From the NCBI GenBank assembly GCA_902727985.1, contig CACVAY010000148.1, forward strand, positions 1 through 59,120: a stretch of 59,120 bases of DNA, in the 5' to 3' direction. The translations under genes were made by a program, and so were the position numbers. Positions 154 to 26,607 of this stretch are shown in pieces. Below the pieces are notes generated by a model. That model ran no database searches. It was given only the letters and a program-made list of their open reading frames with translations, and was not told the origin of the DNA. Each line of letters starts with the position of its first letter. The stretch's first letter is position 1. Source of the stretch: an uncultured Thiotrichaceae bacterium (GTDB lineage: Bacteria; Pseudomonadota; Gammaproteobacteria; Thiotrichales; Thiotrichaceae).

Positions 154-612
154 CTATTTAACCGCCCCTTTTTTTGAAAGCTGCTTGCCCTCCTCCAGCC
201 GCATATTCAAATCTTCTTTTGCCTTTCCAGGGTCAAAATCTTCCAAAGTTCCGCCTTTCTCAAAATGTTGTTGAAAGACTTTTCCGACCGCATAGGTTGA
301 TGCCCCTCCCATCGCCGCCATGCTCGCTCCACCGGCTAACGTACCAACTCCCGGAATCATTTTCAGTGCACTACCCACCAAAGGGGAAGCAGCCTTGGAA
401 GCTAATCCGCTCATCAGCGTTGTCAGCCCGGCCTTAGCCAGGTGTTTCGAGAACGGAACGCCGTAGAGTTTCGAAAGGCGCATCAACATCAGACGCTGCA
501 CACTTATCAACCCAACTGTATCGATAAAAGGCACTGGAATAAATCCTGTCAGGCTCGAACGAAACGCATAGTCCTTAATCAATTTATCAGCCTTTTGTGC
601 TTTGCTATCCAT
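154..612 (-). CDS. DUF697-like membrane protein, copy 1
   Basis: A 152-residue protein of the DUF697 type (a family often linked to GTPases or membrane stress proteins; biochemical role unknown). The family core is visible: TGFIPVPFIDTVGLISVQRLMLMRLSKLYGVPF at residues 22-54, then two Gly/Ala-rich hydrophobic stretches (about 62-82 and 86-112) containing the IPGVGT turn, and the tail GGTLEDFDPGKAKEDL. Paralogues lie at 6079-6660 and 23698-24321; this copy lacks their longer polar N-terminus. It is transcribed divergently from the response regulator, with TATAAT (708-713, minus strand) as a plausible -10. AGAGGCG about 9 nt before the ATG fits a ribosome site. Inner-membrane location is inferred from hydrophobicity. 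Confidence 0.75.
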   Translation of the reverse strand: MDSKAQKADKLIKDYAFRSSLTGFIPVPFIDTVGLISVQRLMLMRLSKLYGVPFSKHLAKAGLTTLMSGLASKAASPLVGSALKMIPGVGTLAGGASMAAMGGASTYAVGKVFQQHFEKGGTLEDFDPGKAKEDLNMRLEEGKQLSKKGAVK

Positions 613-5967: not shown

Positions 5968-6078
5968 CCAAAAGAGCTTGAAAGGGAGTGCACAACTAAC
6001 GTTATACAAACATCTTCAATAGACTAAAGAGATGGTTAGTAACATTCCAACTGAATTAAAAACACGGTGTACAGTACA

Positions 6079-6660
6079 ATGAAAGAAGAGACCCTACCGA
6101 ATCAACAGACCGTCTTGCTTGATGAACTCAATCTACGCATGAGTCAAACTCGGTCTGAACTTGACCTCAAAAACAGGACGATTCGACAACAAGAGGCCAA
6201 TCGTATTATCAAGAACCATGTACTCACTGGATCAGCCATAGGACTCATTCCCCTGCCCCTTGTTGATATTCTCGCCCTAAGCAGCAATCAACTCAATATG
6301 CTACATCGTCTGAGTGAGCATTATAATCTTGACTTTGATCGCAATAAGACCAAAGTCGCTCTGACTGCATTACTAAGTGGCTCACTCCCGACCTTAACCC
6401 TATTGAGCCTTAGCAGCGCCTCCAAGTTCATACCAGGCATAGGCACCTTAGGGGGCAACGCAAGCTTAAGTCTGTTCGGAGGCGCGGTAACTTACGCAAC
6501 CGGCCAAAGCTTTGCAAAGCATTTTGATGCAGATGGAACACTTGATAACTTTCATGCTAGAAAATTCACCCACTTTTTCAAACAGGAATTACAAAAAGGC
6601 CAACACATCATTCAACAACATCTGGCAAAAAAAACAGTAAGCACTATAAATGTAGACTAG
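6079..6660 (+). CDS. DUF697-like membrane protein, copy 2
   Basis: A 193-residue paralogue of the proteins at 154-612 and 23698-24321. A polar, helical N-terminus of about 45 residues precedes the shared core NHVLTGSAIGLIPLPLVDILALSSNQLNMLHRLSEHYNLDF, the hydrophobic Gly/Ser-rich stretch with FIPGIGTLGGNASLS, and the tail DGTLDNFHARKFTHFFKQEL. It lies 111 bp after the coiled-coil gene and probably belongs to the same transcript. I chose the ATG at 6079; a GTG four codons upstream is possible, and neither has a clear ribosome site. Confidence 0.75.
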   Translation: MKEETLPNQQTVLLDELNLRMSQTRSELDLKNRTIRQQEANRIIKNHVLTGSAIGLIPLPLVDILALSSNQLNMLHRLSEHYNLDFDRNKTKVALTALLSGSLPTLTLLSLSSASKFIPGIGTLGGNASLSLFGGAVTYATGQSFAKHFDADGTLDNFHARKFTHFFKQELQKGQHIIQQHLAKKTVSTINVD

Positions 6661-6771
6661 GGAATGCATGTTAATTGAATACAGATATCGATCTGAGATT
6701 CTCTTTTTTACCATCAACGTATTCTGCAACTGCAACCGCATTCGTTGCTCAACGATGTATACTTTTGTTCT

Positions 6772-10204: not shown

Positions 10205-11188
10205 GTGGAAAGTAACAACATAGCCACTACCCAGCCAATATTCAAACGCTGGTTGCGGCGTAAAATACCGCTTTTGATGGTTCTGTTGCTCATCACAGCA
10301 CTCATCACTACCTTTTTTTGGCAGCGAATTGTCATAACCGTTGAATCTGGCCAGGCTGCCATTCTATTCAAGCGATTTAGTGGTACGGAGATAGATAGAG
10401 TTTACGAAGAAGGCTTACATATTTTCAGCCCACTCGATGATGTCTATATTTATGAAGTCCGTAAACAGGTTGCCCTCCACGACTTTGATGTTATTTCAAA
10501 CAAGGGGTTAACCGTCCACTTATCCATGGCAATACGCTATCGCCCTGAATACGATTTGCTAGGGATTCTGCATCAAAGTATTGGGCCAGACTATTTACAA
10601 CGGGTTATTTTGCCTCAGATTGAATCCGTCATGCGGAAACAACTGGGTAGTTACACTGCCGAACAAATCTATACGAATGAAGCTGGGCTATTGACCAAAG
10701 CTATTCTTACAGCTTTAGATGAGGTTGGTCGTAACTATGTGGAAGTAGAAGATATCATTATCCGGAGCATCATATTACCAAAGCAGATGGTCACGGCGAT
10801 TGAAAATAAGCTAAAACAGCAAGAACATATGAAGTCCTATGAATTCCGCATGCAAACTGCAGAAAAAGAAGCTGAGCGACTGGAAATTGAAGCGAAAGGT
10901 ATACAGACTTACCACAGCATCATTAGCGAAAGCCTCTCAGAGCCTACTCTAAGACTTAAAGGTATTGAAGCAACCAATGCCCTAGCCAAATCAAACAATG
11001 CCAAAGTGGTTATCATTGGCTCAGGAAAAGACGGCTTACCTATTATCCTAAATACAGATACTGCAACGCCTACTGAAACGAGTACCAAAAACGAAAAAAC
11101 ATCAACAGACACCGGTAATGCTAATTCATTTGGAAAACCAGCACCAAAAGATGCCCCCCAAAAAGGTGCTTCTGGTATTCAACAATGA
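10205..11188 (+). CDS. SPFH/prohibitin-like membrane protein
   Basis: A 327-residue protein. Residues about 20-42 (PLLMVLLLITALITTFFW) are a membrane anchor, followed by an SPFH/band-7 domain (about 45-235) with VESGQAAILFKRFSGTEIDRVYEEGLHIFSPLDDVYIYEVRKQ and the long helical segment KQQEHMKSYEFRMQTAEKEAERLEIEAKGIQ. The tail is Lys/Thr/Ala-rich and disordered. SPFH proteins build membrane microdomains or cap membrane complexes. The start is a GTG without a clear ribosome site, so it is provisional. The next gene overlaps by 4 bp, making this the first gene of the operon running to about 19.7 kb. Confidence 0.85.
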   Translation: MESNNIATTQPIFKRWLRRKIPLLMVLLLITALITTFFWQRIVITVESGQAAILFKRFSGTEIDRVYEEGLHIFSPLDDVYIYEVRKQVALHDFDVISNKGLTVHLSMAIRYRPEYDLLGILHQSIGPDYLQRVILPQIESVMRKQLGSYTAEQIYTNEAGLLTKAILTALDEVGRNYVEVEDIIIRSIILPKQMVTAIENKLKQQEHMKSYEFRMQTAEKEAERLEIEAKGIQTYHSIISESLSEPTLRLKGIEATNALAKSNNAKVVIIGSGKDGLPIILNTDTATPTETSTKNEKTSTDTGNANSFGKPAPKDAPQKGASGIQQ

Positions 11189-13071
11189 GTCAACAGAAGC
11201 ACCTTGTCTTTAGGGTAATGCTGCTAACCCTCTTACTATCAGGATGCAACCGGGATTTTGCGGGCATGGCTGAACAGCGCATGGCTTATTCCCGCGTCAA
11301 CCAAAGTGATATTGAAATTGTTGCGATTCAGGATCTAATGGGAAGTAATTATGTTAAAGGTATTTTAACGGCGGCAGACGAGATTAATCAACGCCCAGGG
11401 AAACTATTAGGGCGTTCACTAAAAGTGAATATTGAACAAGAACGGTCAACGGTCTCAGACACGAAGAAAATCGTTCGGCGTATTGTTGCAAACCCGAGAA
11501 TTACTGCCGTCTTGGGGCATCGCAGTTCCTCTGTGGCTATTCCTGCCTCAGTGATTTACGATCGTAGTCAGATTATCTTTATGCCTCCTTTCTCTACAGC
11601 AAAATCATTGACAGGACATAATTTCGATTACGTATTTCGTATGGTGCCCAGTAACAAAATTATGGCTGAGCAGTTAGCGCATGTTGCCAAAACCCTGGGC
11701 ATCCAAAATATCGTCGTACTTTATGCGCGCGATGAGCTAAGCCGCGAATTGGCATTCCTCTTTGAAAATGCGGCTCTGAAACAAGGTATCAATCTGGTTA
11801 AGCGCTCATCCTTTTATGATAAGGAGACCAACTACCGTCCTACTATTTCTCAATTCAGCAGTGAAACGTTTGAGGCAGTTTTTATAGCATCACCAGCCGC
11901 TCCAGCGGCACTCATGGCCACACAGCTAAGAGAAATGGGTATTGAACAACCCATTCTCGGCAATGATTCATTGAATCATTTGTCCTATAAACAACGTGCA
12001 GGAGAGGCTGCAGAAAACACCATTGTTCCTTCTATCTACAGACCTGATAAAAATAGCATCATCAGTCAGAAATTTCTTCGACATTATCAGGCTAAATACA
12101 ACACTAAACCTGACTATAATGCCGCTCAAGGGTATGACTCGCTTATGTTGCTGGTAGCCGCAATAGAACAAGCTGGCTCTACACTTGCTCCGCTACTTTC
12201 CTCAACGCTGCACTTTATGCCTGCCTGGGTAGGCGTTACAGGTATACATGCCTATGATCAGACGGGTGAAATGCAGGGCAAGAAGTATTTCTTCAAAGTC
12301 GTAAAAGAAGGGGAATTAAAAGACCTTCCTGCTATCCACGTTCCTTATTTATTAGAACGATTTGAAAAAGGTCTGAAAGATTCACTGATAAAATCCTCTA
12401 TTGACAGAGAGCTAACAGACTTTTCAAAAGTCTTTACCGAACGTTTACATGAGGATGACCATAAAACATACCTGCTTGATCTCGCTCAGGAAATCTTGGG
12501 CTTCAAACGTATTGGTATTATTTATGAAAACACGGTTGACGGACGTCGAGCATCAGATTATCCACTACTCGCGGCTCTAGCAAGCAGAAAAGAGTTGACT
12601 ATCATTCATTGTGAAATTCCCTTTTCGATTTTGGAGAAAACAGAAATTGAGCAAGCAATAATTGCCTGTTACGGCAAATTATCCCTGGAAGTCGATGCTA
12701 TGTATATTCCTCCTTATCGCGGAATAGACAGCAAACTGAGCCAACAACTTAACAGCAGTCTGGCATTTTTCAAGATACCCGCCATATCGCTAGATGAGCG
12801 TAATGATGACCCAAATATCAGCTTGGTACTCGGCAAACGCTCTGATGTAGACCAACAAAGCATGAATTCCATGCAGGTCTATAACAACCTGCTAAACGGC
12901 TTAAAAGTCCATGAGTTTTCTGAACATCTTCAAAGCTTACCAGAAATCACCCCAAACCTGAGCAATCTGCAACGCTATGGTTTACCGGATAAAGCCATTC
13001 TCGACTTATCACCCGATGGCTTCCTCTATTCTGATGATAGAGTGCAAAGTCAGGCGCAAGGCAAACCATGA
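11185..13071 (+). CDS. Lipoprotein with two periplasmic-binding domains
   Basis: A 628-residue lipoprotein with signal MSQQKHLVFRVMLLTLLLSGC (lipobox LLSGC, Cys21). Residues about 38-370 form a type I periplasmic-binding domain like branched-chain amino-acid receptors (VAIQDLMGSNYVKGILTAADEINQRPGKLLGRSL ... ITAVLGHRSSSVAIPASVIYDRSQIIFMPPFST ... YNAAQGYDSLMLL). Residues about 415-600 look like a second, ABC_sub_bind-type domain (EILGFKRIGIIYENTVDGR ... VDAMYIPPYRGIDSKLSQQL). Such doubling is unusual. It overlaps the SPFH gene by 4 bp and the next gene by 4 bp. No importer permease is in the cluster, so a sensory role is more likely than uptake. Confidence 0.82.
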   Translation: MSQQKHLVFRVMLLTLLLSGCNRDFAGMAEQRMAYSRVNQSDIEIVAIQDLMGSNYVKGILTAADEINQRPGKLLGRSLKVNIEQERSTVSDTKKIVRRIVANPRITAVLGHRSSSVAIPASVIYDRSQIIFMPPFSTAKSLTGHNFDYVFRMVPSNKIMAEQLAHVAKTLGIQNIVVLYARDELSRELAFLFENAALKQGINLVKRSSFYDKETNYRPTISQFSSETFEAVFIASPAAPAALMATQLREMGIEQPILGNDSLNHLSYKQRAGEAAENTIVPSIYRPDKNSIISQKFLRHYQAKYNTKPDYNAAQGYDSLMLLVAAIEQAGSTLAPLLSSTLHFMPAWVGVTGIHAYDQTGEMQGKKYFFKVVKEGELKDLPAIHVPYLLERFEKGLKDSLIKSSIDRELTDFSKVFTERLHEDDHKTYLLDLAQEILGFKRIGIIYENTVDGRRASDYPLLAALASRKELTIIHCEIPFSILEKTEIEQAIIACYGKLSLEVDAMYIPPYRGIDSKLSQQLNSSLAFFKIPAISLDERNDDPNISLVLGKRSDVDQQSMNSMQVYNNLLNGLKVHEFSEHLQSLPEITPNLSNLQRYGLPDKAILDLSPDGFLYSDDRVQSQAQGKP

Positions 13072-13985
13072 AACACCATGCCCTGCTCTTTGTCGCTTTG
13101 TTGACATGCTCTTTGCTAATGAATGTGCAAGCAGATGAAAAAGCACAGAAAAAACTTTATTTCGGCATTGAAAATAACAGAATTCCCTATAGCAACCTGG
13201 ATGATAAACAACAGCCTTATGGGGCGCTCATCGATGCCACCCGACATATCTGTAAAAACATTAAGGCAGAGTGTGAATTTGTTCCCGGTGATTTTGACCA
13301 GCTTATGCAGGATGTACAGACTTATAAACTGCAAGGGTTAATCGTTATAGATACATTTCTGCTTCCGGAAACTGACAGACTCAAACTAACCCCTGCATTA
13401 TGCAAGATTCAACCCGTTTTTATCCAAAAAAGACAAGGGAAACACAGATCCCAAAAAGAAGACTTTAAAAATACGACCATAGGTGTCTTGGAAGGATCAT
13501 TGCTGCACTTTTACCTGTTAGACGAATACAGCAACCATTCACGTATCAAGTCTTATCCACTGCTTGAAAGTGGTGTATTTGATCTATTTTCCGGAAGAAT
13601 TACAGCTCTTTTTACTGATCAGGCTTTTTTCACTGAAAGGGTTAAAAAGACACTTTTTGGGAATGAAGAAAAAGAATTTTCCATGATAGCTATGAAGACT
13701 ACAAAGATCACACTCCCGGACACCAGTATGAGACTGGCATTAAGAGAACAAGATAACGAATTATATGAGGAACTGACCAAAGTGATTCAAGCACAAGGGA
13801 AAACTCCTGCCTGTATTGACTTGCTGACATCATCCAAACCATCAACGCCAGTAATATCCATAACCGAACCGCCGTTACTTGAGAATCCTCCCAGACCGAT
13901 GACCCCAACAACTAACGTCAATGACCTTAAAAAAGTACAACCTAAAACTGAGCAATTAGCTCCAAAAACAGCCCCAAAAGAATGA
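13068..13985 (+). CDS. SBP_bac_3-type periplasmic binding protein
   Basis: A 305-residue secreted protein with signal peptide MKHHALLFVALLTCSLLMNVQA. The body (about 25-250) looks like an amino-acid-type extracellular binding protein (LYFGIENNRIPYSNLDDKQQPYGALIDATRHICKNIKAECEFVPGDFDQLMQDVQ). The C-terminal 50 residues are a Pro/Thr/Lys-rich tail, perhaps disordered or wall-associated. It overlaps the preceding lipoprotein gene by 4 bp. With the neighbouring two-domain lipoprotein it adds a further ligand-binding module to an operon with no importer. Confidence 0.8.
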   Translation: MKHHALLFVALLTCSLLMNVQADEKAQKKLYFGIENNRIPYSNLDDKQQPYGALIDATRHICKNIKAECEFVPGDFDQLMQDVQTYKLQGLIVIDTFLLPETDRLKLTPALCKIQPVFIQKRQGKHRSQKEDFKNTTIGVLEGSLLHFYLLDEYSNHSRIKSYPLLESGVFDLFSGRITALFTDQAFFTERVKKTLFGNEEKEFSMIAMKTTKITLPDTSMRLALREQDNELYEELTKVIQAQGKTPACIDLLTSSKPSTPVISITEPPLLENPPRPMTPTTNVNDLKKVQPKTEQLAPKTAPKE

Positions 13986-13998
13986 GGAAATTCTGCAA

Positions 13999-15828
13999 AT
14001 GACCCTAACCCAGCGTTTACCATTCATTATTTACCCTCTACTGATTTTGGGACTCAGTTTGTTGCCACTGTTTAGTGGCAATCCACTGCATGCTAAAACG
14101 GACAGCGACACAGCCGCTTCAAAAACCTCTGACCAAACCACACAAAAAAATGAGGATAAATCTGCTGACGACGATAATGCAGAAAGCGCCACATCGGAAG
14201 CCGAGTCACAAATTGAAGACAGCATGGCTAACATTGAGATTATCCAGCAAACCCTTGAAGCATTACGTTCAGAAATCGAAAATAGCAAGGAAAAGACCAG
14301 TCTCAACCGCAGTAGTGTAAAAACTATCAAAGAAGGGCTTGAACTGATTGACGAAAAGCTAAAAGAAGCCTATAGCGGCTTGGATGAAAGTAAAACCGGC
14401 ATTAACACTAACACCAAAGCCCTGAATCAAATGGGAAAAAAGTTACTTACCAAGACGAGGGAAATACGTGCCAATGCGGCTGATCTTGTTTCACAAAAAT
14501 CGTTGATTGAGGATAACTCTATTCGCCTCTATGAACTACTGATCCAGATTAGTAATACAAGCGATAAAGTAGAAAGGCTTGCAAATGCCTTGGATAGTGT
14601 TAAAAAAACGGACTACACAAAAAAACTAAAAACTGAAGTTTACACCAATATCAATAAGCTATGGATGCTTCTATCTATTATTCTGGTTTTTCTCTCTCCC
14701 CTCGCGTTTGTCCTCTCTAGTAATCGTAATCAGTATAAACCGCTAACTGATGGTATCGCACAACACCAAGGTGTATTGATGGTGTGCCTTACCGTCTTTC
14801 TAGGTTTCTTTACCATTGGTTTTGGCCTGATGTATGGCACAACATCTTCAGGCTTGATTGGCACAACAACCTATCTGCTAGAAAATGTAGCCACCGACTC
14901 TTCTATAACCCCTATACAAACAAACAGGCCCTTTACTGAATTTGTGCTTTATCAGGCAGGTTTTGCCATGTTAGCTGCCATGATTGTTTATATGACGGTG
15001 GGTAGGCAACTTTCCAGTACTAAACACATGCTATTGGCACTCTTTGTTGGTGCGGTACTGATTCCTGTATTCGGACACTGGACGTGGAGCAGCCATTTCG
15101 TCACTGGCAATTTGGGATGGCTTGAAGGTGCCGGTTTTATCGATGAAGCAGGCTCCATTACCATCAATACAGTAGCAGCCTGCTTTGCTCTTATCATTAT
15201 CATAAAGCTTAGTCGCTCCTCCCCTCCTCCTCATCGCGCTGATCAAGAAGTTGATGACCCCGTGTATTCAACCAGCGCTGTTCTGATACTGTGGCTAAGT
15301 TGGCTAGGTTTTACCACAGCGACGTTGCCCATTGATGACGAGCAAATATCCACCCTTATGCTTAATGTTGGTTTAGCAGGCTCAGCTGGGGGATTGAGCG
15401 CATTCTTACATTACGCTTTTTTCTCAAACCCGAACAACCGTATAGCCAGTGGCCTTGGTGGCTTTGTCTCCGGTTTAGTAGCCATTGCAGCCTGTGCCCA
15501 AAGTGTTACGTTTGCAGAAGCCGCAGTGATCGGAGCCAGTGCTGGCCTGCTGCAAAACTTCGGATTCAGTTTTCTGCGTAAAACCTATCTTAAACAAGCC
15601 TGGCAAACGAGAGCTGCACATCTGATCGCTATTCATGGTGTTGGTGGTATCTGGGGAGCATTGTGCGTTGGCTTGTTGGCTCCAGAAGGTAACTTTGGCC
15701 CACTAAACATCAGTCAACTGGTTATTCAAACTCAGGGAATTGCAGCTGCCCTGGTCTATAGTTTTGTGATGGCAAACATCATCATGTTTGTACTAAATTT
15801 TCGCAGAAAAACAACCACACCCTTATAA
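13999..15828 (+). CDS. Ammonium-transporter-like membrane protein with periplasmic coiled coil
   Basis: A 609-residue protein with a signal sequence at about 7-32, an Asp/Glu/Lys/Ser-rich linker, and helical coiled coil at about 65-205. About eleven hydrophobic helices (from about 220) follow that resemble Amt/Rh: GAGFIDEAGSITINTVAA aligns with the Amt segment around E. coli AmtB Asp160-His168, and IHGVGGIWGALCVGLLA with the segment around His318. Asp382 and His546 are kept, but the first pore histidine is Asn390. Loss of one twin-His residue suggests altered conduction or a sensory role. GAGGAAA lies 7 nt before the ATG. It is 13 bp after the binding-protein gene. Amt-fold assignment is fairly sure; function is not. 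Confidence 0.75.
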   Translation: MTLTQRLPFIIYPLLILGLSLLPLFSGNPLHAKTDSDTAASKTSDQTTQKNEDKSADDDNAESATSEAESQIEDSMANIEIIQQTLEALRSEIENSKEKTSLNRSSVKTIKEGLELIDEKLKEAYSGLDESKTGINTNTKALNQMGKKLLTKTREIRANAADLVSQKSLIEDNSIRLYELLIQISNTSDKVERLANALDSVKKTDYTKKLKTEVYTNINKLWMLLSIILVFLSPLAFVLSSNRNQYKPLTDGIAQHQGVLMVCLTVFLGFFTIGFGLMYGTTSSGLIGTTTYLLENVATDSSITPIQTNRPFTEFVLYQAGFAMLAAMIVYMTVGRQLSSTKHMLLALFVGAVLIPVFGHWTWSSHFVTGNLGWLEGAGFIDEAGSITINTVAACFALIIIIKLSRSSPPPHRADQEVDDPVYSTSAVLILWLSWLGFTTATLPIDDEQISTLMLNVGLAGSAGGLSAFLHYAFFSNPNNRIASGLGGFVSGLVAIAACAQSVTFAEAAVIGASAGLLQNFGFSFLRKTYLKQAWQTRAAHLIAIHGVGGIWGALCVGLLAPEGNFGPLNISQLVIQTQGIAAALVYSFVMANIIMFVLNFRRKTTTPL

Positions 15829-15840
15829 GGAATATCAGCA

Positions 15841-17478
15841 ATGAAAGTCCTGAATTTCATGACTCAGGAAACAGATGCAGAAAAAAAGCGCATCTTGCTC
15901 TTGGCAGCAATTTCAGGTATTACCAATAGTTTTCTGCTGGTTCTCCTGAACCATGCTGCGACACAATTAGAAAATGGAAGCATAGAAGCACAGCTTTTGT
16001 TCCAATACATTATCACTTTTGTATTATTTATTTTTGCGCAGCGTAGTTCACAACGTGAATCCGTGACAGCCGTTGAAACAGCATTACAGAGAGTGCGAGT
16101 GCGTATTGCCAACAAGGTCAGACGCAGTGAATTACGCACCATTGAAGAATTGGGAAATATCGGGACGTATTCATCACTGACTCAAGGAGCCAGCACGGTT
16201 GCTCAAGCCGTTATGTATTTAGTCAAAGGCATAGAGTCCCTCTTTGTTCTGATATTTGCCAGTTTATACCTGTTATGGTTATCACCCGTCAGTTTTCTTA
16301 TGGCCAGTATTTTAATAGGGCTTGCTATTCCCTTATTAATACGTCATTACCATCGCACATTCAGTGAGCTATCTGAAGCTTCGCAGAAAGAAGGGATATT
16401 CTTTGAGAATTTCACCGCCATGCTGAAAGGTTTTAAGCATTTGAAAATCAATCAGCGAGAAAGCGAGGCCATGTTTTCGAATATCAATCAGCTAGCAACT
16501 GAAACAGGGGTTCTAAAAAGCCGTTCCAACGTGCGTCTTTTAGAAGATGTTCTGCTATCTAATGTCACCTTTTATTTGTTGTTATTACTGGTTGTTTTTA
16601 TATTACCCAACTTCATCCCTGCACATGAAGAAAACCTGTTTCAAGTGATTACTACTATTTTGTTTATGATAGGGCCTATCTCAGCCGTGGCCGCTGCCTT
16701 ACCCAATGTGTCAAAAACCAATGTGGCCATCAGTAACTTGTATAAACTTGAAGAAAGACTGGATAAAAACCTATCAGAAGAGAAAGAAAGCAAAGCCGTC
16801 GAACCTTTTGACGCATTTAACACTATCACCCTGAAGAATGTCTGTTTTACCTATACAAATACCGAGGGAGAACCACTCTTTGATGCAGGTCCTTTTACCC
16901 TGAGCTGCAAACGCGGGGAAATCCTATTCATCACAGGCGGAAATGGCAGTGGTAAGTCAACTTTCCTCAAGTTACTAACGGGCTTGTACTATCCTCGACA
17001 AGGCCACATTTATATTGATCAACGACAAATTCCAACCCAAGACTACCCAGTTTACCGAGAGCTGTTTTCAGTCGTTTTCAGCGATTTCCAGTTATTTGAT
17101 CATCTATATGGCCAAACTGATGCATCAAAAATAGAAATCCAGCAAGAAATAAACGCATGGTTGGAAAAACTTGACCTCAGCCACATCACGCATTTTGAAG
17201 ATGGGCGTTTCACCAACACTGATCTATCGACGGGGCAGAGAAAGCGTCTCGCCTTGATTATTGCCTTGATACAGCATCGCCCTATTCTGGTTTTTGATGA
17301 ATTAGCCGCTGATCAGGATCCAAAATTCCGCAAGCTTTTTTATGAGGATATTCTTCCAGAATTAAAACAACAAGGTAAAACCATTATCTCAGTAACGCAT
17401 GATGACAAATACTTCGGGGTTGCCGACCAGGTTCTGTCTATGAATAATGGCCAACTGGATAGAGAAGCCTTCAGATGA
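15841..17478 (+). CDS. SyrD/PvdE-type cyclic-peptide export ABC transporter
   Basis: A 545-residue half-transporter: six-helix exporter domain (about 15-310) fused to an ATPase (about 325-545). Walker A is GGNGSGKST, the signature LSTGQRKRLAL, and Walker B ILVFDELAADQDPKFR. The D-E-x-A-A-D-Q-D-P sequence is characteristic of the SyrD/PvdE family, which moves nonribosomal peptides or their precursors across the inner membrane. AAGGAA precedes the ATG. The downstream hydrolase overlaps by 4 bp. As with PvdE and the acylase PvdQ in pyoverdine maturation, export and periplasmic trimming could be coupled here; that comparison is inference. Confidence 0.9.
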   Translation: MKVLNFMTQETDAEKKRILLLAAISGITNSFLLVLLNHAATQLENGSIEAQLLFQYIITFVLFIFAQRSSQRESVTAVETALQRVRVRIANKVRRSELRTIEELGNIGTYSSLTQGASTVAQAVMYLVKGIESLFVLIFASLYLLWLSPVSFLMASILIGLAIPLLIRHYHRTFSELSEASQKEGIFFENFTAMLKGFKHLKINQRESEAMFSNINQLATETGVLKSRSNVRLLEDVLLSNVTFYLLLLLVVFILPNFIPAHEENLFQVITTILFMIGPISAVAAALPNVSKTNVAISNLYKLEERLDKNLSEEKESKAVEPFDAFNTITLKNVCFTYTNTEGEPLFDAGPFTLSCKRGEILFITGGNGSGKSTFLKLLTGLYYPRQGHIYIDQRQIPTQDYPVYRELFSVVFSDFQLFDHLYGQTDASKIEIQQEINAWLEKLDLSHITHFEDGRFTNTDLSTGQRKRLALIIALIQHRPILVFDELAADQDPKFRKLFYEDILPELKQQGKTIISVTHDDKYFGVADQVLSMNNGQLDREAFR

Positions 17479-18884
17479 CTACCATGCGTTTTTATTACCT
17501 CTTCTGCTTGAAAAGCTGTGTTTTGTTCATCGCCTACTCTAGTGTGTATGCGGGGCCAACATCTCCCCCTCAGACTGGAAAGATACCTATCATCCATATT
17601 TATGCAGACACACTACCCTCTACCGATATCGGACTAGAAACAGGACGCCAGACAAAAGCCCTTTTTCCCGATATCGAACATCGTTACGATCAACATCTTG
17701 CCACAATCATTAAGCCCTCCCAATACCAGCAGCTACTAGAACAAAATCTACCTACATTGCTGAAAAATATGGATCAGGCTTATCGGGAAGAACTCGATGG
17801 TGTAGCCAGCGCATGGCTCTTGACTCGCACCAACAAGCTAGGGGATGGCTTGCTGTCACTGGATGAATATCATTTATTGAACCTGTTACCCGACCTGGGA
17901 ATGGCTCCGGATGGTTCCGGTTTAGGCGTTATGGGCAAGGCATCAGGGGAAAACGGCCCTATTGTGGGGAGAAACATGGATTGGTCCAGCAGCCCTGAAT
18001 TACGTAGCCTGCAAACCCTGACCGTCTATCACTATAGAGATAAAACCATTGTAAATATTGGGTTTGCGGGCATCCTTTCCATGATGACAGGCTTTAATGA
18101 TCAAGGCTTATTCCTTGCTTATTTCAATACTGAAGCTTATTCACCCTATCAACAGACATACCAGCCACCAAAAAATGTACGTTCTGCCGCCTTCGAAACC
18201 CGCAAGGCACTAGAAAATAGCCACTCTATTAAACAGGCTAGTCACCTACTTTCCAAACAAGCATTTGGATTCAGTCATGCCATTCTGATGGCAGATAAAA
18301 AGACTGTTCAGGTACTAGAATACCCGGCAAATGGAACGGCAAAAATCCGCACTTGGGATAGTGCGACCCACACTAATCGACCTTGGAATCGAACTCAGCA
18401 AATTGGGGTTGTCGATTGCCATCTACTAGCAACACTGCCCAATAACTGTAACCTTGTAAAAGATAGCTATCACTGGGAGCGACTGCGTGACATGGCGCAA
18501 TTCAGCCCTTCTCAACCAGCCAATGTACAAACGGTTTCACAAATTCTGTTTGATACTGCCAACGCAAGCTATGAGATCTTTAATCAATATACTCTGGAAT
18601 CCCTGATTTTCTTGCCCGTTAGTGGTAGCTTGTATCTGTATACCACACCAATGAACGGCACTCATCCCTCCTCCCCCATACACCAACCATACCTTGATCT
18701 ACTCCCCACTAAGCATCGCCATAAATCCAGTAAATATGACCTTAATTTTACCCTATATTCCTGGTTGCTCTTACTGACAATGGTCGGTATTGCTGTGTGG
18801 GTATCCTTAACACCGTCAAAGATAATTATATTTCATATGGGCTTTAAAAAATTTAAAGAACGACTCGCATCAATTTTAAAATAA
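17475..18884 (+). CDS. Membrane-anchored C45/choloylglycine-hydrolase-like protein
   Basis: A 469-residue protein with signal peptide (about 5-27), a periplasmic body and one C-terminal membrane helix (about 424-448, LYSWLLLLTMVGIAVWVSL). The body resembles Ntn-type linear-amide hydrolases of the C45/acyl-CoA:6-APA acyltransferase group: a helical pro-region ending LLSLDEYHLLNLLPDL, then DGSGLGVMGKASGENGPIVGRNMDW (147-170), then a beta-rich body. The family has a Cys nucleophile about seven residues before the G-x-A-[ST] element. Here that site is Gly147 followed by Ser148, so activity is doubtful or Ser-based. It overlaps the exporter by 4 bp. Confidence 0.7.
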   Translation: MTTMRFYYLFCLKSCVLFIAYSSVYAGPTSPPQTGKIPIIHIYADTLPSTDIGLETGRQTKALFPDIEHRYDQHLATIIKPSQYQQLLEQNLPTLLKNMDQAYREELDGVASAWLLTRTNKLGDGLLSLDEYHLLNLLPDLGMAPDGSGLGVMGKASGENGPIVGRNMDWSSSPELRSLQTLTVYHYRDKTIVNIGFAGILSMMTGFNDQGLFLAYFNTEAYSPYQQTYQPPKNVRSAAFETRKALENSHSIKQASHLLSKQAFGFSHAILMADKKTVQVLEYPANGTAKIRTWDSATHTNRPWNRTQQIGVVDCHLLATLPNNCNLVKDSYHWERLRDMAQFSPSQPANVQTVSQILFDTANASYEIFNQYTLESLIFLPVSGSLYLYTTPMNGTHPSSPIHQPYLDLLPTKHRHKSSKYDLNFTLYSWLLLLTMVGIAVWVSLTPSKIIIFHMGFKKFKERLASILK

Positions 18885-18969
18885 CGCCACTCACACAGTA
18901 CTGGCAGTGTTAATCAATTCTCGTATGCTGACTATGCAATCAGAACGCTACAGAAAAATCACCGAATAA

Positions 18970-19719
18970 ATGCACACATCATTTATTTCTCAAGTTGGAG
19001 ACACCAAGATTTATCAAAGCTTGAAGGATGGAGAAATACACATTTTCCTAGCACATCCAGACTATGTTGAATCCTCAGATGAAAGTTTGCTAAACGCAAC
19101 AGAGCGCTCCCGGGCGAGTGCATTTAAGTTTTTCAGCGATCGTAAGCGCTATGTGGCGGCACACAGTTTCCTGCGTCAAACATTAAGCAAATATGCTCCA
19201 CTTCTACCAGCAACATGGCGATTTACCACCAATGGCTATGGCAAACCTAGCATTGCAAACAACGGATATGAATGGTTGCAATTCAACCTTTCACACACTC
19301 ACGGGTTGATTGCCTGTGCCATCAGCTACCAACGAGAAGTAGGGATTGATGTTGAAAAACGGAAGGCATTAATGGATCTAGAGTCCCTGTGTCAATACGC
19401 TTTTTCGGCCCCAGAAGCTGCTGATATATTATCACTTGCGAACCTACAAGCACGGGAGCAACGCTTTTTCACTTACTGGACCTTAAAAGAGGCCTATGTC
19501 AAGGCACGAGGCATGGGTTTATCTATTCCTTTACAACAATTTACGTTTATTGAGGGAGTGAATAAGGAATGGTCTTTACACTGTGACCCGGCACTTCAAG
19601 ACGATGGAAAAAACTGGCAGTTTTCTTCTTATATAATGAATGATCATCACTTGTCTATCGGGGTACCTATTGATCCTGCTATCATGACATCAAGGATGAG
19701 ATTTAATCGACTCTTCTAA
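18970..19719 (+). CDS. Sfp-type 4'-phosphopantetheinyl transferase
   Basis: A 249-residue enzyme that would attach the phosphopantetheine arm of CoA to carrier proteins. Signature regions are present: WLQFNLSHTHGLIACAI, VGIDVEKRK (Mg-binding Asp/Glu) and FFTYWTLKEAYVKARGMGL (W-x-x-K-E-[AS]-x-x-K). The Sfp type usually serves secondary-metabolite carriers rather than only the fatty-acid ACP. It lies 85 bp after the hydrolase gene and converges on the adenylation-decarboxylase gene. No carrier-protein domain is visible in the window, so its substrate must lie elsewhere. Confidence 0.9.
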   Translation: MHTSFISQVGDTKIYQSLKDGEIHIFLAHPDYVESSDESLLNATERSRASAFKFFSDRKRYVAAHSFLRQTLSKYAPLLPATWRFTTNGYGKPSIANNGYEWLQFNLSHTHGLIACAISYQREVGIDVEKRKALMDLESLCQYAFSAPEAADILSLANLQAREQRFFTYWTLKEAYVKARGMGLSIPLQQFTFIEGVNKEWSLHCDPALQDDGKNWQFSSYIMNDHHLSIGVPIDPAIMTSRMRFNRLF

Positions 19720-19741
19720 AGGCCGGAACATCCAAGTGCAA

Positions 19742-19767
19742 GCTGGCTTGGTATAAACCAGCAAGCC
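19742..19767. terminator. Alternative hairpins between converging genes
   Basis: GCTGG/CCAGC (19742-19746 with 19758-19762) and GGCTTG/CAAGCC (19745-19750 with 19762-19767) are mutually exclusive stems in the 54-bp space between the transferase and the adenylation enzyme. A bidirectional terminator is plausible, but no U run is present. Confidence 0.3.
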
Positions 19768-19773
19768 CCAGAC

Positions 19774-22700
19774 TCATGCTTCCTTATAGAGTCGCTGATT
19801 AGCTGCACTAACATGACTCGTCAATAAAACATTTTTCTTAATTTTTCCACCGAGTGTCAAAGGCATCTTGTCAAGAACTCGATATGCACGCGGTCTCATT
19901 TTCTCCTGTAGCCTTTTATTAGCAAACTCTTTTACCCAATCAAATTTCTTCGAAGAAGCATGATTATTAGTAAACTCTAGGTAAGCGACTAAGTACTTGG
20001 TACCCGATTTATCTGCTTCCACTAAAATAGCACAGTGCTTTATATGCGGTATTTCAAGGAAGAGCGATTCAACTTCTGAAATCTCAATCCTGTTTTCACC
20101 GATTTTGACCAGATCATCAACACGACCAAAATATTCAAAATGACCATTCGCCAATTCTCTGCCCCGATCTCCTGTACGAAACATGGTAGCTTCCGCGACA
20201 TCGGCAAAAGGATCAGGAAGAAAACGATCCCCCCCCTTTTCTTCTTGGTGAAAATACCCTTTGGATACAGCTGATCCTCCGATATAAATCTCACCTGCTT
20301 TGTTTTTAGCCACAGGTTTCAAGTTCTCATCAAGAATATAAACAGAGCAATTTGGCAAGGGTTTCCCAATTGGAATAAATGAATCCTGATCTTCTTCTTT
20401 GATAATACTTTCAGAAAACGCATCGGCAAGTGATGCAGTGATTCCCAGCGCCTCTTTGTCAGCTTCTAACTCATGAATATTTTTATCGCCACAGACCACG
20501 TTGGCTATCATAAGCTGGTTTTCAAGCATTTCAAAAATATCTGCCTGAGTCGTGAGAGGATTAGCAATAATCACCCGGAACACCGTAATCTGGCATTCAT
20601 TTCCATAACGTGTGTTTGTGAGCGTTGTCTTTGAAGCAAATGTTGAGCCTTGCAGAAATTGTGTTTCTTGAATCTTTGCGTTGATGGCATTGATGTGCAA
20701 ATTATCTTCAGCGCACAAGGTATTAGTCGTAACTTTTTGACGGTAGCTTTCCGGAATATAACGATAGTTGACAATATTCATCGGCGGATCAAACAACAGC
20801 TCAAAACAGCCTAGTGATTTTATAATACCCGCAACAAATACAGCCTTGTCGATACTAGCATTGAACAAAGCACCATAACCTTTCCTACCAATTAACTGTA
20901 ATGATGCATGTAACAACAGGGCAATAGCAGACCGAGAGCCTTCCAGGCTGAAACGTCCTGTATCATAACTATCTGGAGCCGCTTGATAAGTAGCGGTGGT
21001 TGCTCCGTAGGATAATATATCTGGATCACGAAACAGACACATGCTAATCCCTTGCGGAAGATAAAACTGCTTGTGTGCACAAAACGTAATGGACTGGGCG
21101 CGTTCCACCCCCTTAAACCGATGTAAATAGCGGTCAGAAAATAACCCTGCCCCTCCCCATGCTGCATCCACATGGAAGTAAATATCGTGTGTATCGGCAA
21201 TATCAGCCATTTGTTCCAGAGGATCAATATGGCCGGTTTCAGTCGCACCAGCAATGCCCACCATTGCAAACACCAATAAACCGTTATGCTTACAATAATC
21301 CAACTTCTTTTTTAGATCTTCAGCATCCAGGGCACCTGTTGAGTCAAAATCAACATAGATAATATTGCTCTTTCCTATTCCTAAAACCATGGCTGCTTTC
21401 TGCATGGAATAGTGCATTAATTTTGATCCAAGTATCACGAGATCCTTATATCCACTCGATTGCAGTATCGAATGCATACTCTCACTCTCCAAACCGTCAC
21501 CTTTTGATAAGCGAGCCAAGGCCTGATTTCGAGCAATCATCAAGGCAGTAATATTGGAGATAGACCCGCCACTGGTCACTAAGCCCAGATTCCGGTTCGG
21601 TGTCTGAATATTTTCTTCATAGAATGTGTCGGATAAACCATAGAAACACTTATGTAACATTGCCAGCGCTTCTCTTTCGACGAAAATAGCCGACTTGGCG
21701 GTTTCAACTTTCACCATATTCTGATTCATCTGCGAAATCAGCTTACTCATATCATGAACGAAGTCAGGTAACGCTGAAGTCATATGCCCGATATACAAAG
21801 GCGAAGCAATATTGATCAAGTAAGGCGTCACTTCTTTGGCAAACCAGTCAAAATACTGCACCATACTGACTGGATACTCAGCTATTTCCGTATTTGTAAA
21901 ATGTTCAGCCAACTCATCAACTGGTACATTGGGTGTCGTTATCTGGTTCCCAATCGGAATACTATGCCTTTTTAAATGATCATCTGTATGACCACGAGGC
22001 AGTAAATCTACCGCTCTGGAAAAATAGGATAGTACGTTATCAACATCGAAACGCTTGACTTCATACCATGTGACATCTGCACTGACTTCAGTAGTGCCAT
22101 AAATATTAATCAAGCGTACCGACTTGAAGCGCTGATAGAAGAGACTGGCGACTGATGTGGATAAGGCCTCGCCACTACAAAAAACATATTTGAGATAAGG
22201 TAAATGAAAAACCAATTCATGAGGTACGGAAAGTATGGATCTGAGTAATGAAGGAGAGAGCGTTATGCGGGTGATTTTTTTTCGTCCTAACGTCTGCACA
22301 AGTTCTTCAGCTTCATGAGCTTGAGTATTAGAGAGAATATGCAATGCCGTTCCAGCCAGCAAAGGGGAAAATATTTCCGCCACATGATCAACAAAGCTGA
22401 TTGAAATTCGTTGACATGCAACCTCGTTCATTGCAAACGGGTATTCCTGCCGAGCCCAGGCCAAACGATTCATAATCCCCCTGTAGGTACCTTGCACAGC
22501 CTTAGGGTGACCGGTCAATCCCGATGTATAGATGATATAGAGTAAATTGTCTTCTGTGATTTCAATGGCAGGATTGCGAGTAGACTCTTTTCCTACAAGC
22601 GGCCAATCTGAATCAACATTAATGATACTTAAATCATCTTTCTCAATATTATTATCCAGCTCTTCACGCGTAATACAGATATGAGCCATACAATCATTCA

Positions 22701-22998
22701 GAATCAGATTTACCTGTTCAGGAGGCATATTTGAATCTATCGGAACATAAGCACCACCTGATTTAAGAATCCCCAGCAGCGCAATAATACATTCCACCGA
22801 ACGATCCAGATACAATGCAACAAATACTTCTGATCCAACATCATGATGACGTTGCAGATAGTGAGCCATCTGATTCGCTTTACGATTTAATTCCTGATAA
22901 CTAATGGTATCGGTGCCACAGGAAACCGCCATTTCATTCGGGGTCTTTTCTACTTGCTCTTCAAATATTTTGCTCAGTGAGCGAAATTTCTGCTTCAT
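19774..22998 (-). CDS. Adenylation domain with an embedded PanP-like aspartate decarboxylase
   Basis: A 1074-residue enzyme. Residues 1-312 are the N-terminal part of an NRPS adenylation domain (A3 YTSGLTGHPKA at 157-167, A5 NIYGTTE at 298-304). Residues about 313-870 are a complete PLP group II decarboxylase most like PanP (aspartate to beta-alanine): SPLYIGHMTSALP near 400, HVDAAWGG with Asp611, and PLP lysine Lys643 in CAHKQFYLPQG. The adenylation domain then resumes (IPIGKPLPNCSVYILDE at 875-891, GEIYIGG, FRTGD, GRVDDLVKIGENRIE at 958-972, catalytic Lys1052). The pocket aligned to GrsA PheA reads VDATFSIADK, like the remembered beta-alanine code. No carrier or condensation domain follows. 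AGAGAAG precedes the ATG. Confidence 0.88.
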   Translation of the reverse strand: MKQKFRSLSKIFEEQVEKTPNEMAVSCGTDTISYQELNRKANQMAHYLQRHHDVGSEVFVALYLDRSVECIIALLGILKSGGAYVPIDSNMPPEQVNLILNDCMAHICITREELDNNIEKDDLSIINVDSDWPLVGKESTRNPAIEITEDNLLYIIYTSGLTGHPKAVQGTYRGIMNRLAWARQEYPFAMNEVACQRISISFVDHVAEIFSPLLAGTALHILSNTQAHEAEELVQTLGRKKITRITLSPSLLRSILSVPHELVFHLPYLKYVFCSGEALSTSVASLFYQRFKSVRLINIYGTTEVSADVTWYEVKRFDVDNVLSYFSRAVDLLPRGHTDDHLKRHSIPIGNQITTPNVPVDELAEHFTNTEIAEYPVSMVQYFDWFAKEVTPYLINIASPLYIGHMTSALPDFVHDMSKLISQMNQNMVKVETAKSAIFVEREALAMLHKCFYGLSDTFYEENIQTPNRNLGLVTSGGSISNITALMIARNQALARLSKGDGLESESMHSILQSSGYKDLVILGSKLMHYSMQKAAMVLGIGKSNIIYVDFDSTGALDAEDLKKKLDYCKHNGLLVFAMVGIAGATETGHIDPLEQMADIADTHDIYFHVDAAWGGAGLFSDRYLHRFKGVERAQSITFCAHKQFYLPQGISMCLFRDPDILSYGATTATYQAAPDSYDTGRFSLEGSRSAIALLLHASLQLIGRKGYGALFNASIDKAVFVAGIIKSLGCFELLFDPPMNIVNYRYIPESYRQKVTTNTLCAEDNLHINAINAKIQETQFLQGSTFASKTTLTNTRYGNECQITVFRVIIANPLTTQADIFEMLENQLMIANVVCGDKNIHELEADKEALGITASLADAFSESIIKEEDQDSFIPIGKPLPNCSVYILDENLKPVAKNKAGEIYIGGSAVSKGYFHQEEKGGDRFLPDPFADVAEATMFRTGDRGRELANGHFEYFGRVDDLVKIGENRIEISEVESLFLEIPHIKHCAILVEADKSGTKYLVAYLEFTNNHASSKKFDWVKEFANKRLQEKMRPRAYRVLDKMPLTLGGKIKKNVLLTSHVSAANQRLYKEA

Positions 22999-23328
22999 GA
23001 TGTCTTCTCTATACTGATTTTGTTGTGGACGTCATAAGAGCTTCATGGCGGCCTTCCGAATATCAGGGGTTGTTGTTTATCTTTGCTGACAGGCTTTTCT
23101 TCATCCTATTGATCACCATAGAGCTAATCAATAAGCGGTTATTTTCTCTCCGAAATCACCTAATATCATAAATCATTCAGTCATCACTTCGAGATAACTA
23201 GAGACACCTGCTCTAGCTAAGAACAGAATCTTAATACATAGCCCACATTATAAGCCACAGAATTACGGTATCTATACACCCGCTTATGAGCCATTAAATA
23301 ATCAAGCTCTGGAGTCAGTCCAATGTCA
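22999..23328. other. Intergenic leader upstream of the adenylation-decarboxylase gene
   Basis: No gene, repeat or convincing promoter is recognisable by eye in this 330-bp AT-rich stretch. It must contain the promoter of the minus-strand adenylation-decarboxylase gene. Confidence 0.4.
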
Positions 23329-23463
23329 TTAAGGAACCTCTGATCAAGTCCAAACAATATTGGAACCGAGGCTATGGCCTCGCCTAACGTATTGAAAAAA
23401 AATACGAAGAGCGGGACTAAAGTCCCGATTCCAAAAAAATAGACTTAATCAGAGCCTCCTTAA
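23329..23463. mobile_element. MITE-like 135-bp palindromic element
   Basis: The ends are inverted repeats of 22 bp with 19 matches: TTAAGGAACCTCTGATCAAG.. at 23329-23350 against the reverse complement of 23442-23463 (TTAAGGAGGCTCTGATTAAG..). Similarity continues inward (TTGGAACCGA against TTGGAATCGG). Two hairpins lie inside: GAGGC-TATG-GCCTC and GGGACT-AA-AGTCCC. Both ends carry TTAA, which may be the target. No coding capacity. This fits a non-autonomous element; the parent IS is not in the window. Confidence 0.6.
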
Positions 23464-23538
23464 GCAAAATCCTGCATCTCTTCAGAAATAAAGGTATCAG
23501 TAGCACAAAAAATAGCAGAGTAGACGGGCAAACCGTCA

Positions 23539-23594
23539 TGTTAATTTTTGTTAAATCGGCATTGCAAAAGTCTTGAGTCTACGGTTTCTATGAT
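23539..23594 (+). promoter_or_regulatory. TGTTAA direct repeat and -10 box upstream of DUF697 copy 3
   Basis: TGTTAATTTTTGTTAA (23539-23554) has TGTTAA, then TTTT, then TGTTAA with a 10-bp period. TATGAT at 23589-23594 is a plausible -10, 34 bp beyond the repeat; the copy at 2031-2050 has almost the same distance to its TACAAT. The ATG of the DUF697-like gene is at 23698. Confidence 0.5.
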
Positions 23595-23697
23595 AAAGTC
23601 CCTAAAAAGGTGAAACACACCTCAATAAGTTATTTTTCAGAATCGACTTCTACCTGATGTTTCAACATCACACATTTATTTAGTATCGGAACCCATC

Positions 23698-24321
23698 ATG
23701 ACCTACGAATCTGTAGACCAGCAGCCAGAAAAACCCAGCAATAATACAGCTCAGGAGTCTCAAACAGAGTGTGAGACTTCAGTAAATATTTCACCTGATG
23801 AAATGGAGGCTGTGATTAATGAAACCGTGGAAATTGCGGCTAACAATATTGTCAAGAATCACATAATTGCTAGTATTACCTTAGGTCTGGTCCCTATTCC
23901 GCTATTTGATCTTGCCGCCCTTACTACCACCCAGATGAATATGCTACGTAGTCTTAGTGAGCTTTATGATGTGCCTTTTGAAGATTCCAATAGCAAGTCA
24001 TTAGTTACCTCTCTCGTCGGTGGTTCATTGCCAGTTCTGGGCGTGCTTGGCTTGAGCAGTTTTGCGAAACTGATTCCAGGCATAGGCAGTCTGGTTGGCA
24101 GCGCAAGCCTGAGTATTACTGCTGGCGCTGTTACCTATGCTGTAGGACAAGTGTTTATCATGCATTTTAGCGAAGGCGGCACACTCGACGACTTTAATCC
24201 AAAGCAAGCACAGGTATATTTCAAACGAGAATTTGAAGCAGGAAAAACCTTTGTACAGGATATAAAAGATGAAGTGAAAGCGATGAAAGCAGCCAAAGAG
24301 CCTGAGTCGGGCGACAGTTGA
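23698..24321 (+). CDS. DUF697-like membrane protein, copy 3
   Basis: A 207-residue paralogue of 154-612 and 6079-6660. An acidic, polar N-terminus (about 1-55) is followed by the family core NHIIASITLGLVPIPLFDLAALTTTQMNMLRSLSELYDVPFE, the Gly/Ser hydrophobic region with LIPGIGSLVGSASLS, and the tail GGTLDDFNPKQAQVYFKREFEAGK. The Pro-Asp pair in the first hydrophobic segment (PIPLFD) is kept in all three copies and suggests a re-entrant or interface role. It stands behind a copy of the shared direct repeat and is followed by the PotD-like gene after 135 bp. Confidence 0.78.
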   Translation: MTYESVDQQPEKPSNNTAQESQTECETSVNISPDEMEAVINETVEIAANNIVKNHIIASITLGLVPIPLFDLAALTTTQMNMLRSLSELYDVPFEDSNSKSLVTSLVGGSLPVLGVLGLSSFAKLIPGIGSLVGSASLSITAGAVTYAVGQVFIMHFSEGGTLDDFNPKQAQVYFKREFEAGKTFVQDIKDEVKAMKAAKEPESGDS

Positions 24322-25509: not shown

Positions 25510-25693
25510 TAAGGAAGGAGTCCAACCTTCATAGAAGCCTTCCTAATCTCACAATAACGGGTAATGAAAAACCTTTTATTTCTTATCCATCTTATCCATC
25601 CCCTCGTCATCTTCCGATATATGCGCTATCCGTCAGATTACACCCGCTCGAAGTACAAGCGTGGAGAGACAGGTGCAGGTAGCCCCTGAGAAA

Positions 25694-25742
25694 TGTTAAG
25701 AAATGTTAATTTATCTTCCAGAAACACAGCTACTTGTCTAAT
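25694..25742 (+). promoter_or_regulatory. TGTTAA-N4-TGTTAA repeat and -10 box upstream of the DUF481 gene
   Basis: TGTTAAGAAATGTTAA at 25694-25709 is the fifth copy of the repeat and matches the one at 3865 base for base. TCTAAT at 25737-25742 is a possible -10. The gene start at 25777 lies 68 bp after the repeat. Confidence 0.5.
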
Positions 25743-25776
25743 CTCAGCACCCTCTAAACTCCAAAAGGGGAGCATA

Positions 25777-26607
25777 ATGATTATCCATACCAATAAAACT
25801 ATTCTATCAACAAGTAGCCTATTCTTGGCCCTACTAACGCTGACAACAGCAGCACTCGCCGAAGACCAACAACCCCCTAGTGGTGGCGACTTTCTATCTG
25901 CTGATGAACAAGGCAGCGCCTCAACCAAAAAGCTATTTGGTAATGAAGCCGACCTCAAATCCAAAGAGGGCTGGTCGGGCCAGGCCAGTGCTGGCTTGGT
26001 AACTTCCACTGGCAATGCTGAGAACAACAACATTACAGCAGGCATCAATGCCACATACATGAAGCGTCGATGGCGTCATACTTTCGCTGGCAATGTTTAT
26101 TTTGCAGAAAGTGAAGGTGAACGCACAGCAGAGCATTACGCCCTAAGCCACAAAGCCAGATACTCATTAAGCCAAAAAAGTTATCTTTTCAACTTTATCA
26201 GCTATGATGCTGATGAATTTGCTGACATCGACTTCCGTATCGCAGACGTACTTGGTTACGGACATACCCTTATTGATACTGACAAACATTATCTGGAAGC
26301 TGAACTCGGACTCGGCTTCCGCCAGACCCAATTCATCAGTGATGACCCAGATTCTGATGAAACAGTAGGAAATCTAGGTCTACATTACATTGGCAAACTC
26401 ACCGATACGACCAAGCTAACCGAAGATTTACTGATACTAGGTGGTGATGAAAACGTCTTCACCGAATCCGTGACTGCATTAAATGTCAAGATGACCGAAA
26501 AGCTGTCACTCAGCCTCAACTACACCATCCGCAATAATAGTGATGTACCAGACGGTATTGAGAAAACCGACACTATTACCAGCGTTAATCTAGTTGCCGA
26601 TTTTTAA
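25777..26607 (+). CDS. DUF481/YdiY-like outer-membrane beta-barrel protein
   Basis: A 276-residue exported protein. The ATG at 25777 has AAAGGGGAG upstream; the longer in-frame start at 25693 would fall inside the operator repeat. Signal peptide about 1-29 (LALLTLTTAALA). From about residue 65 the sequence alternates hydrophobic and polar residues as in beta-strands (WSGQASAGLVTSTGNAENNNITAGINATYMKRRWRHTFAGNVYFAE), typical of the DUF481 salt-induced outer-membrane family, and it ends ITSVNLVADF with a C-terminal Phe. The role is unknown beyond an envelope stress or osmotic association in relatives. Confidence 0.82.
   Translation: MIIHTNKTILSTSSLFLALLTLTTAALAEDQQPPSGGDFLSADEQGSASTKKLFGNEADLKSKEGWSGQASAGLVTSTGNAENNNITAGINATYMKRRWRHTFAGNVYFAESEGERTAEHYALSHKARYSLSQKSYLFNFISYDADEFADIDFRIADVLGYGHTLIDTDKHYLEAELGLGFRQTQFISDDPDSDETVGNLGLHYIGKLTDTTKLTEDLLILGGDENVFTESVTALNVKMTEKLSLSLNYTIRNNSDVPDGIEKTDTITSVNLVADF

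Follow-up and report, generated by a model that had tools for sequence, protein, structure and literature searches.

A PanP-like decarboxylase nested within an NRPS adenylation domain and its possible reuse in beta-alanine supply

A single gene in a 59,120-nucleotide contig from an uncultured Thiotrichaceae bacterium (CACVAY010000148.1 of assembly GCA_902727985.1; the whole stretch is called the window here) was originally predicted to encode a complete PLP-dependent decarboxylase of PanP type embedded in a nonribosomal peptide synthetase (NRPS) adenylation (A) domain. This raises the questions of whether such a protein is genuine and what one enzyme enclosed within another might do for the organism that carries it.

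Results

Architecture of the fused gene

The reading frame begins with ATG and runs for 1074 codons with no internal stop, and domain searches and alignments divide it as follows.

19774-22998, minus strand: fused gene A(N)-PanP-A(C), 1074 aa, from the domain search and homologues of equal architecture
22051-22998, minus strand: N-terminal adenylation part, motifs A1-A5, residues 1-316 (Pfam, NCBIfam)
20383-22050, minus strand: insert with linkers, residues 317-872 (Pfam, NCBIfam, alignments)
20491-21951, minus strand: PanP homology within the insert, residues about 350-836
21070-21072, minus strand: codon of the PLP lysine, Lys643
19777-20382, minus strand: C-terminal adenylation part, motifs A6-A10, residues 873-1074 (Pfam, NCBIfam)
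20095-20097, minus strand: residue 968, Glu replacing the conserved A8 glycine (alignment)
19843-19845, minus strand: codon of the A10 lysine, Lys1052

Pfam places AMP-binding (two stretches, the best at 12-313) and Pyridoxal_deC (412-747, between them) in one chain, as predicted, with AMP-binding_C at 975-1052 scoring slightly below its cut-off. The NCBIfam model for NRPS A domains, TIGR01733, reaches 342 bits against a curated cut-off of 317.4, and an NRPS A domain is thus interrupted by a PF00282 decarboxylase within a single polypeptide. The PanP model, TIGR03799, scores 480 bits over residues 350-831, below its equivalog cut-off of 606; judged by sequence, the nested decarboxylase is PanP-like and not PanP proper. 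The insertion lies between A5 (YGTTE...ADVTWYEVKR) and A6 (PIGKPLPN), the placement given in the original prediction, whose limits of 313-870 move to about 317-872 once the PanP homology (350-836) is taken with its linkers. The residues expected of a group II decarboxylase, the PLP lysine Lys643 with its partners Asp611 and His529, and the A10 lysine, Lys1052, are all present and invariant across the fused homologues, and Pfam finds neither carrier nor condensation domains in cis, so that the expectations of preserved catalytic lysines and of a protein lacking both domains held up.

These observations establish the 1074-residue protein as a genuine domain insertion, a decarboxylase inside an A domain. 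GC content is even across the three sections of the gene (0.417, 0.423 and 0.402), no Ns occur, and the architecture recurs at full length in 13 other records, so that it is no assembly artefact, as the original prediction had also concluded. A frame error, a chimera and two overlapping proteins were considered and are ruled out by the homologues of equal architecture together with the even GC.

Homologues in three phyla

The 13 records, with 43-62% identity to the window protein, carry the same insertion in three phyla. Closest is a full-length fusion (62% identical) in G052, a genome of the same family, followed by one in G244, a gammaproteobacterial metagenome-assembled genome (MAG) of another family (contig of L049, 59%), by two from Thiohalocapsa (57%), and by nine cyanobacterial and Bacteroidota records, Moorena among them (43-45%). 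The junctions are common to the fused homologues in the alignment, and the Moorena homologue (L055), aligned at full length, also has its insertion at A5-A6. In the tree the gammaproteobacterial copies separate from the cyanobacterial and Bacteroidota copies, which sit within C-A(PanP)A-T modules of assembly lines. An A domain of the same clade in a Scytonema MAG (L059:10001-11683) has no decarboxylase and keeps part of the linker, so that it marks the boundaries of the insert; it is an apparent natural excision, or else a misassembly of that MAG.

The distribution is sparse. No fusion turned up in the five remaining genomes of the genus to which the window belongs, and 398 genomes sampled evenly across the phylum added none. 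Plasmids gave no DNA-level match to 17475-23700 and no full-length protein match, and viral contigs gave three weak A-domain-like matches only. In the contig scan, a single-protein query returned no match and an alignment query retrieved the fused relatives.

State of the adenylation part

We read the specificity code of the window A domain by hand, from V203, D204, A207, T246, F273, S275, I299, A307 and D308, as VDATFSIADK, with positions set against those of GrsA; the assembly-line relatives in cyanobacteria read VDAVFSLADK, and another A domain in the G052 cluster reads VDWVVSLADK. The pair Val235/Asp236 is presumably the beta-alanine pattern of the A-domain code. Because the insert is an aspartate decarboxylase by family and the surrounding code is of VD type, the insert would make the substrate of the very domain that encloses it.

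The A8 loop of the window protein reads KIGENR instead of the expected KIRGxR, with Glu in place of Gly968; of the 28 aligned sequences, just the window and G244 proteins show this replacement, and in the G244 fusion both aspartates of the code are gone as well. In acetyl-CoA synthetase, a Leu mutant reportedly adenylates and does not thiolate. The A8 glycine is proposed to allow thioester formation by opening the pantetheine tunnel, though its change to Ala had a mild effect in one enzyme (PMC10455477). The A8 Glu suggests that, if adenylation remains, transfer to a carrier thiol would be impaired.

Conserved sites of the N-terminal A part are changed at 15 of 90 positions in the window protein, 17 of 90 in G052 and 24 of 90 in G244. 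Clear relaxation of the A domain was looked for and not found in the window protein, for which the A to PanP branch ratios on the tree are ordinary as well; it is seen in G244. Since the window protein has no more such changes than G052 and its branch ratios are ordinary, adenylation may persist, with carrier loading doubtful. In every gammaproteobacterial pair the PanP part is better conserved than the A part, and the window PanP part is 66-72% conserved against the other gammaproteobacterial copies. The two Thiohalocapsa fusions show weak relaxation of the A part, with amino-acid to silent codon changes of 14:13 in A and 5:19 in PanP (Fisher p 0.04) and a dN/dS of 0.08 for the PanP part.

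In the predicted structure the two A halves close into one normal A core, as the original prediction required of a true insertion. AlphaFold2 with 28 sequences, an alignment that included uninterrupted A domains, gave a pLDDT of 72 and a pTM of 0.60, with the N-terminal part of PanP low; with 13 sequences the model was poor (pLDDT 64, pTM 0.40). A fold search of the model (VIA-align) reached Z 54 and an rmsd of 1.5 Å over 404 residues that lie on either side of the insert, the matches spanning residues 2 to 961 and skipping the insert. The rows of this search are A domains only, and the decarboxylase part was matched by sequence and not by fold.

Surroundings of the fused gene

Three neighbours of the fused gene may bear on its origin.

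18970-19719, plus strand: 4'-phosphopantetheinyl transferase (PPTase), convergent neighbour, with a homologue near the Thiohalocapsa fusion gene
17475-18884, plus strand: C45/AAT-family hydrolase or acyltransferase with a C-terminal transmembrane segment, a possible remnant of a lost cluster, uncertain
25693-26607, plus strand: DUF481 protein, an uncertain member, whose homologue borders a decayed Thiohalocapsa polyketide synthase (PKS) gene

In G052 the free-standing fusion heads a gene run of an intact PKS/NRPS cluster, comprising a PALP enzyme, a carbon-nitrogen hydrolase, an A-T-KS-AT-KR-T protein and a C-A-T-C-A-T-TE protein. In Thiohalocapsa (L048:1299-5150, minus strand; also L047) a PKS (A-T-KS) ends inside its AT domain, continues in frame into a tail like the 3' end of a C45 gene, and adjoins a DUF481 gene; the C45 link there is a match of 78 residues, and no C45 match lies near the G052 fusion gene. 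In the window the fusion is surrounded by the C45, PPTase and DUF481 genes, with no PKS or NRPS genes around it, and no NRPS gene was seen beside the G244 fusion. A search of the complete window genome gave no condensation domain, and the three carrier domains of this genome all lie on other contigs, none near the fusion: one in a PKS (contig C13), one in an AcpP-sized protein and one in an A-T protein (contig C141) that has its own A domain with a different code. The possibility that the C45 protein ends in a carrier domain was considered and dropped, since its tail has no Pfam match and resembles a transmembrane segment. We infer that the window locus is the remnant of a PKS/NRPS cluster.

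Several other features were noted in passing. The A-T protein on contig C141 (L044:4184-8251, minus strand) has long C-terminal membrane segments and repeats, resembles Pls-type homopolymer synthetases by eye, and adjoins a class III aminotransferase. The window also encodes three DUF697-like paralogues and an OmpA/BON protein (154-612, minus strand; 6067-6660, 23698-24321 and 4016-5053, plus strand), and G052 (L023) and Thiohalocapsa (L048) likewise have an OmpA and DUF697 pair close to the fusion gene. A run at 10205-18884 (plus strand) opens with an SPFH protein and two solute-binding proteins, followed by a coiled coil fused to an ammonium-transporter domain (13999-15828), an ABC exporter of cyclic-peptide type and the C45 hydrolase; the window also has a hybrid histidine kinase with SBP_bac_3 sensor domains (6745-9675, plus strand).

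Loss of panD

The window genome carries panD as a pseudogene (contig C126:8914-9149; locus L132, about 5915-6150) that, compared with its intact counterparts in the genus, has an internal deletion of about 106 bp, a frameshift and a stop after about 50 codons. It lies between an intact panC and a hisC-like aminotransferase gene, in the same operon as intact panB and panC, and the fusion is the sole PF00282 gene of the genome; this is the pattern that a replacement of PanD would be expected to leave. Three genus mates (G002, G003 and G005) have an intact panD and no PF00282 gene, and a fourth (G004) has no panD and a different PF00282 enzyme. That enzyme (L139, contig C196) is GAD/CSAD-like, about 500 aa long and unrelated in appearance, and is perhaps another PanD substitute. 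PF00282 enzymes are established substitutes for PanD, one from Desulfovibrio having rescued an E. coli panD mutant (PMC10102598).

In G244, which also has a free-standing fusion, panC is present, the fusion is again the sole PF00282 gene, and panD was found neither beside panC nor elsewhere in this 87% complete MAG. The link between fusion and panD loss comes from one genome with direct evidence, the pseudogene, and from this one incomplete MAG. All 12 of the other tested fusion carriers, in which the fusion is located within or close to PKS/NRPS genes, have an intact panD. The loss of panD has other routes as well: of 20 relatives sampled, 8 have no panD, and the gene is also absent from G104, which belongs to the genus of G244 and gave no fusion match.

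Discussion

We hypothesize, as a somewhat probable explanation, that the fused protein is a beta-alanine loader left from a lost assembly line and retained for its decarboxylase, as a source of beta-alanine for pantothenate and CoA. The ancestor would have been the enzyme that loads beta-alanine in a PKS/NRPS assembly line; in it the nested PanP domain would decarboxylate aspartate, its presumed substrate, to beta-alanine and the surrounding A domain would activate that beta-alanine as its putative substrate. With the putative cluster lost and panD broken in the window genome, the decarboxylase would now feed beta-alanine to PanC for pantothenate and CoA, and the A halves, which would still form an A core, would serve at least as a scaffold, thiolation presumably having been lost. 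Because both the assembly line and the usual beta-alanine enzyme are gone, the nested enzyme probably serves vitamin B5 production. We count in favor of this explanation the broken panD with intact panB and panC, the single PF00282 gene, the missing condensation domain, the A8 Glu, the conservation of the PanP part, the parallel case of G244, the panD and PF00282 pattern among the genus mates, the intact panD of the 12 carriers with PKS/NRPS surroundings and the known PanD substitutes among PF00282 enzymes; against it stand the loss of panD elsewhere, the incompleteness of G244, an A domain that is not clearly relaxed and the PanP score below cut-off. A broader claim, that once the NRPS/PKS was lost the decarboxylase still nested in the loading A domain replaced PanD as the beta-alanine source for CoA in one or two gammaproteobacterial lineages and that an assembly-line domain with a non-loading A scaffold was so taken into primary metabolism, we advance at slightly less than even confidence.

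The protein may instead be a working bifunctional loader that makes and adenylates beta-alanine and passes it in trans to a distant carrier (the C141 A-T protein, the C13 PKS carrier, AcpP or another acceptor, primed by the adjacent PPTase), perhaps supplying pantothenate as well. The complete A motifs, the retained A10 lysine and VD-type code, the lack of clear relaxation and the adjoining PPTase are all consistent with this, and loading in trans is plausible in G052 because the free-standing copy there heads an intact PKS/NRPS operon. We nevertheless regard it as rather unlikely for the window protein, whose genome yielded no condensation domain and no carrier near the fusion, whose candidate acceptor on C141 comes with an A domain of its own and a different code, and whose A8 glycine has become Glu. 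That same change, together with cluster partners that the window lacks and that are visibly cut short in Thiohalocapsa, would also suit a relic in decay, left over from a lost biosynthetic cluster, without present function and with a frame that is open only for the time being. This is improbable, however, for a gene with 1074 open codons, all PLP and A-core residues kept, a PanP part 66-72% conserved among gammaproteobacterial copies and a Thiohalocapsa dN/dS of 0.08 over that part, in a genome where panD is the gene that broke.

Very improbable, in our judgment, is a system analogous to the ebony and tan pair, in which beta-alanyl-AMP would be coupled directly to an amine, the C45 protein would make or cleave the resulting amide and the ABC exporter would move it. 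Such a route needs no condensation domain, and the C45 protein and a TIGR01194-type exporter do adjoin the fusion gene; however, a T domain and an amine-selecting domain are both lacking, the C45 gene lies on the opposite strand amid transporter genes, its Thiohalocapsa link is the 78-residue match only, and none was found near the G052 gene.

If retention for beta-alanine supply is correct, the locus would be a case of secondary metabolism rescuing primary metabolism, with an enzyme for a natural-product step supplying a vitamin pathway. The fusion would also be a candidate for genomes that have panB and panC and in which a known aspartate decarboxylase is lacking, as reported for 95 gut strains (PMC6593275); such fusion genes would be annotated as NRPS and overlooked. 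For enzyme engineering, the A5-A6 site tolerates an insert of about 550 residues, and natural insertions together with one apparent clean excision are at hand for comparison.

Comparison with known systems

Our literature search for PanP inside adenylation domains found no paper. The novelty implied by the original prediction does not stand: JamL (Q6E7J8) of the jamaicamide pathway of Lyngbya/Moorena has been described as having an adenylation domain that encloses a Pyridoxal_deC domain (PMC3870968), and the same arrangement occurs in cyanobacterial and Bacteroidota assembly lines. The architecture as such is thus not categorically new. JamL and the window protein share a decarboxylase within an NRPS A domain, and the A5-A6 site is common to the window protein and the Moorena homologue (L055); JamL is a multidomain PKS/NRPS with condensation and carrier domains in cis, whereas the window protein is free-standing. 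PanP itself (TIGR03799), a PLP-dependent aspartate 1-decarboxylase and non-orthologous substitute for PanD, shares homology over residues 350-831, the PLP lysine and its partners and the proposed role in beta-alanine supply; the window version differs in being nested in an A domain and in scoring 480 against 606 bits.

One catalytic domain inside another, with the A core preserved, is also found in TioS (A-M-A, PDB 5wmm, among the structural matches to the window A core), TioN and KtzH. Their inserts are methyltransferases at a8-a9 or a2-a3 (PMC11355689), in contrast to the decarboxylase of the window protein, which is placed at A5-A6 and would do its work ahead of activation and not on a carrier-bound residue. 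The same review gives a8-a9 and a2-a3 as the usual insertion sites and describes methylation, oxidase and ketoreductase inserts and no decarboxylase (PMC11355689). Stand-alone panP genes on Nostoc and Gloeocapsopsis plasmids (L025, L026) likewise tie a PanP-type decarboxylase to a PKS/NRPS cluster; there, in contrast, it is a separate gene beside NRPS genes, and the neighboring A domains are without the VD code. Set against these systems, what this analysis adds is the free-standing versions, the A5-A6 site, the spread over three phyla and a likely reuse in pantothenate synthesis.
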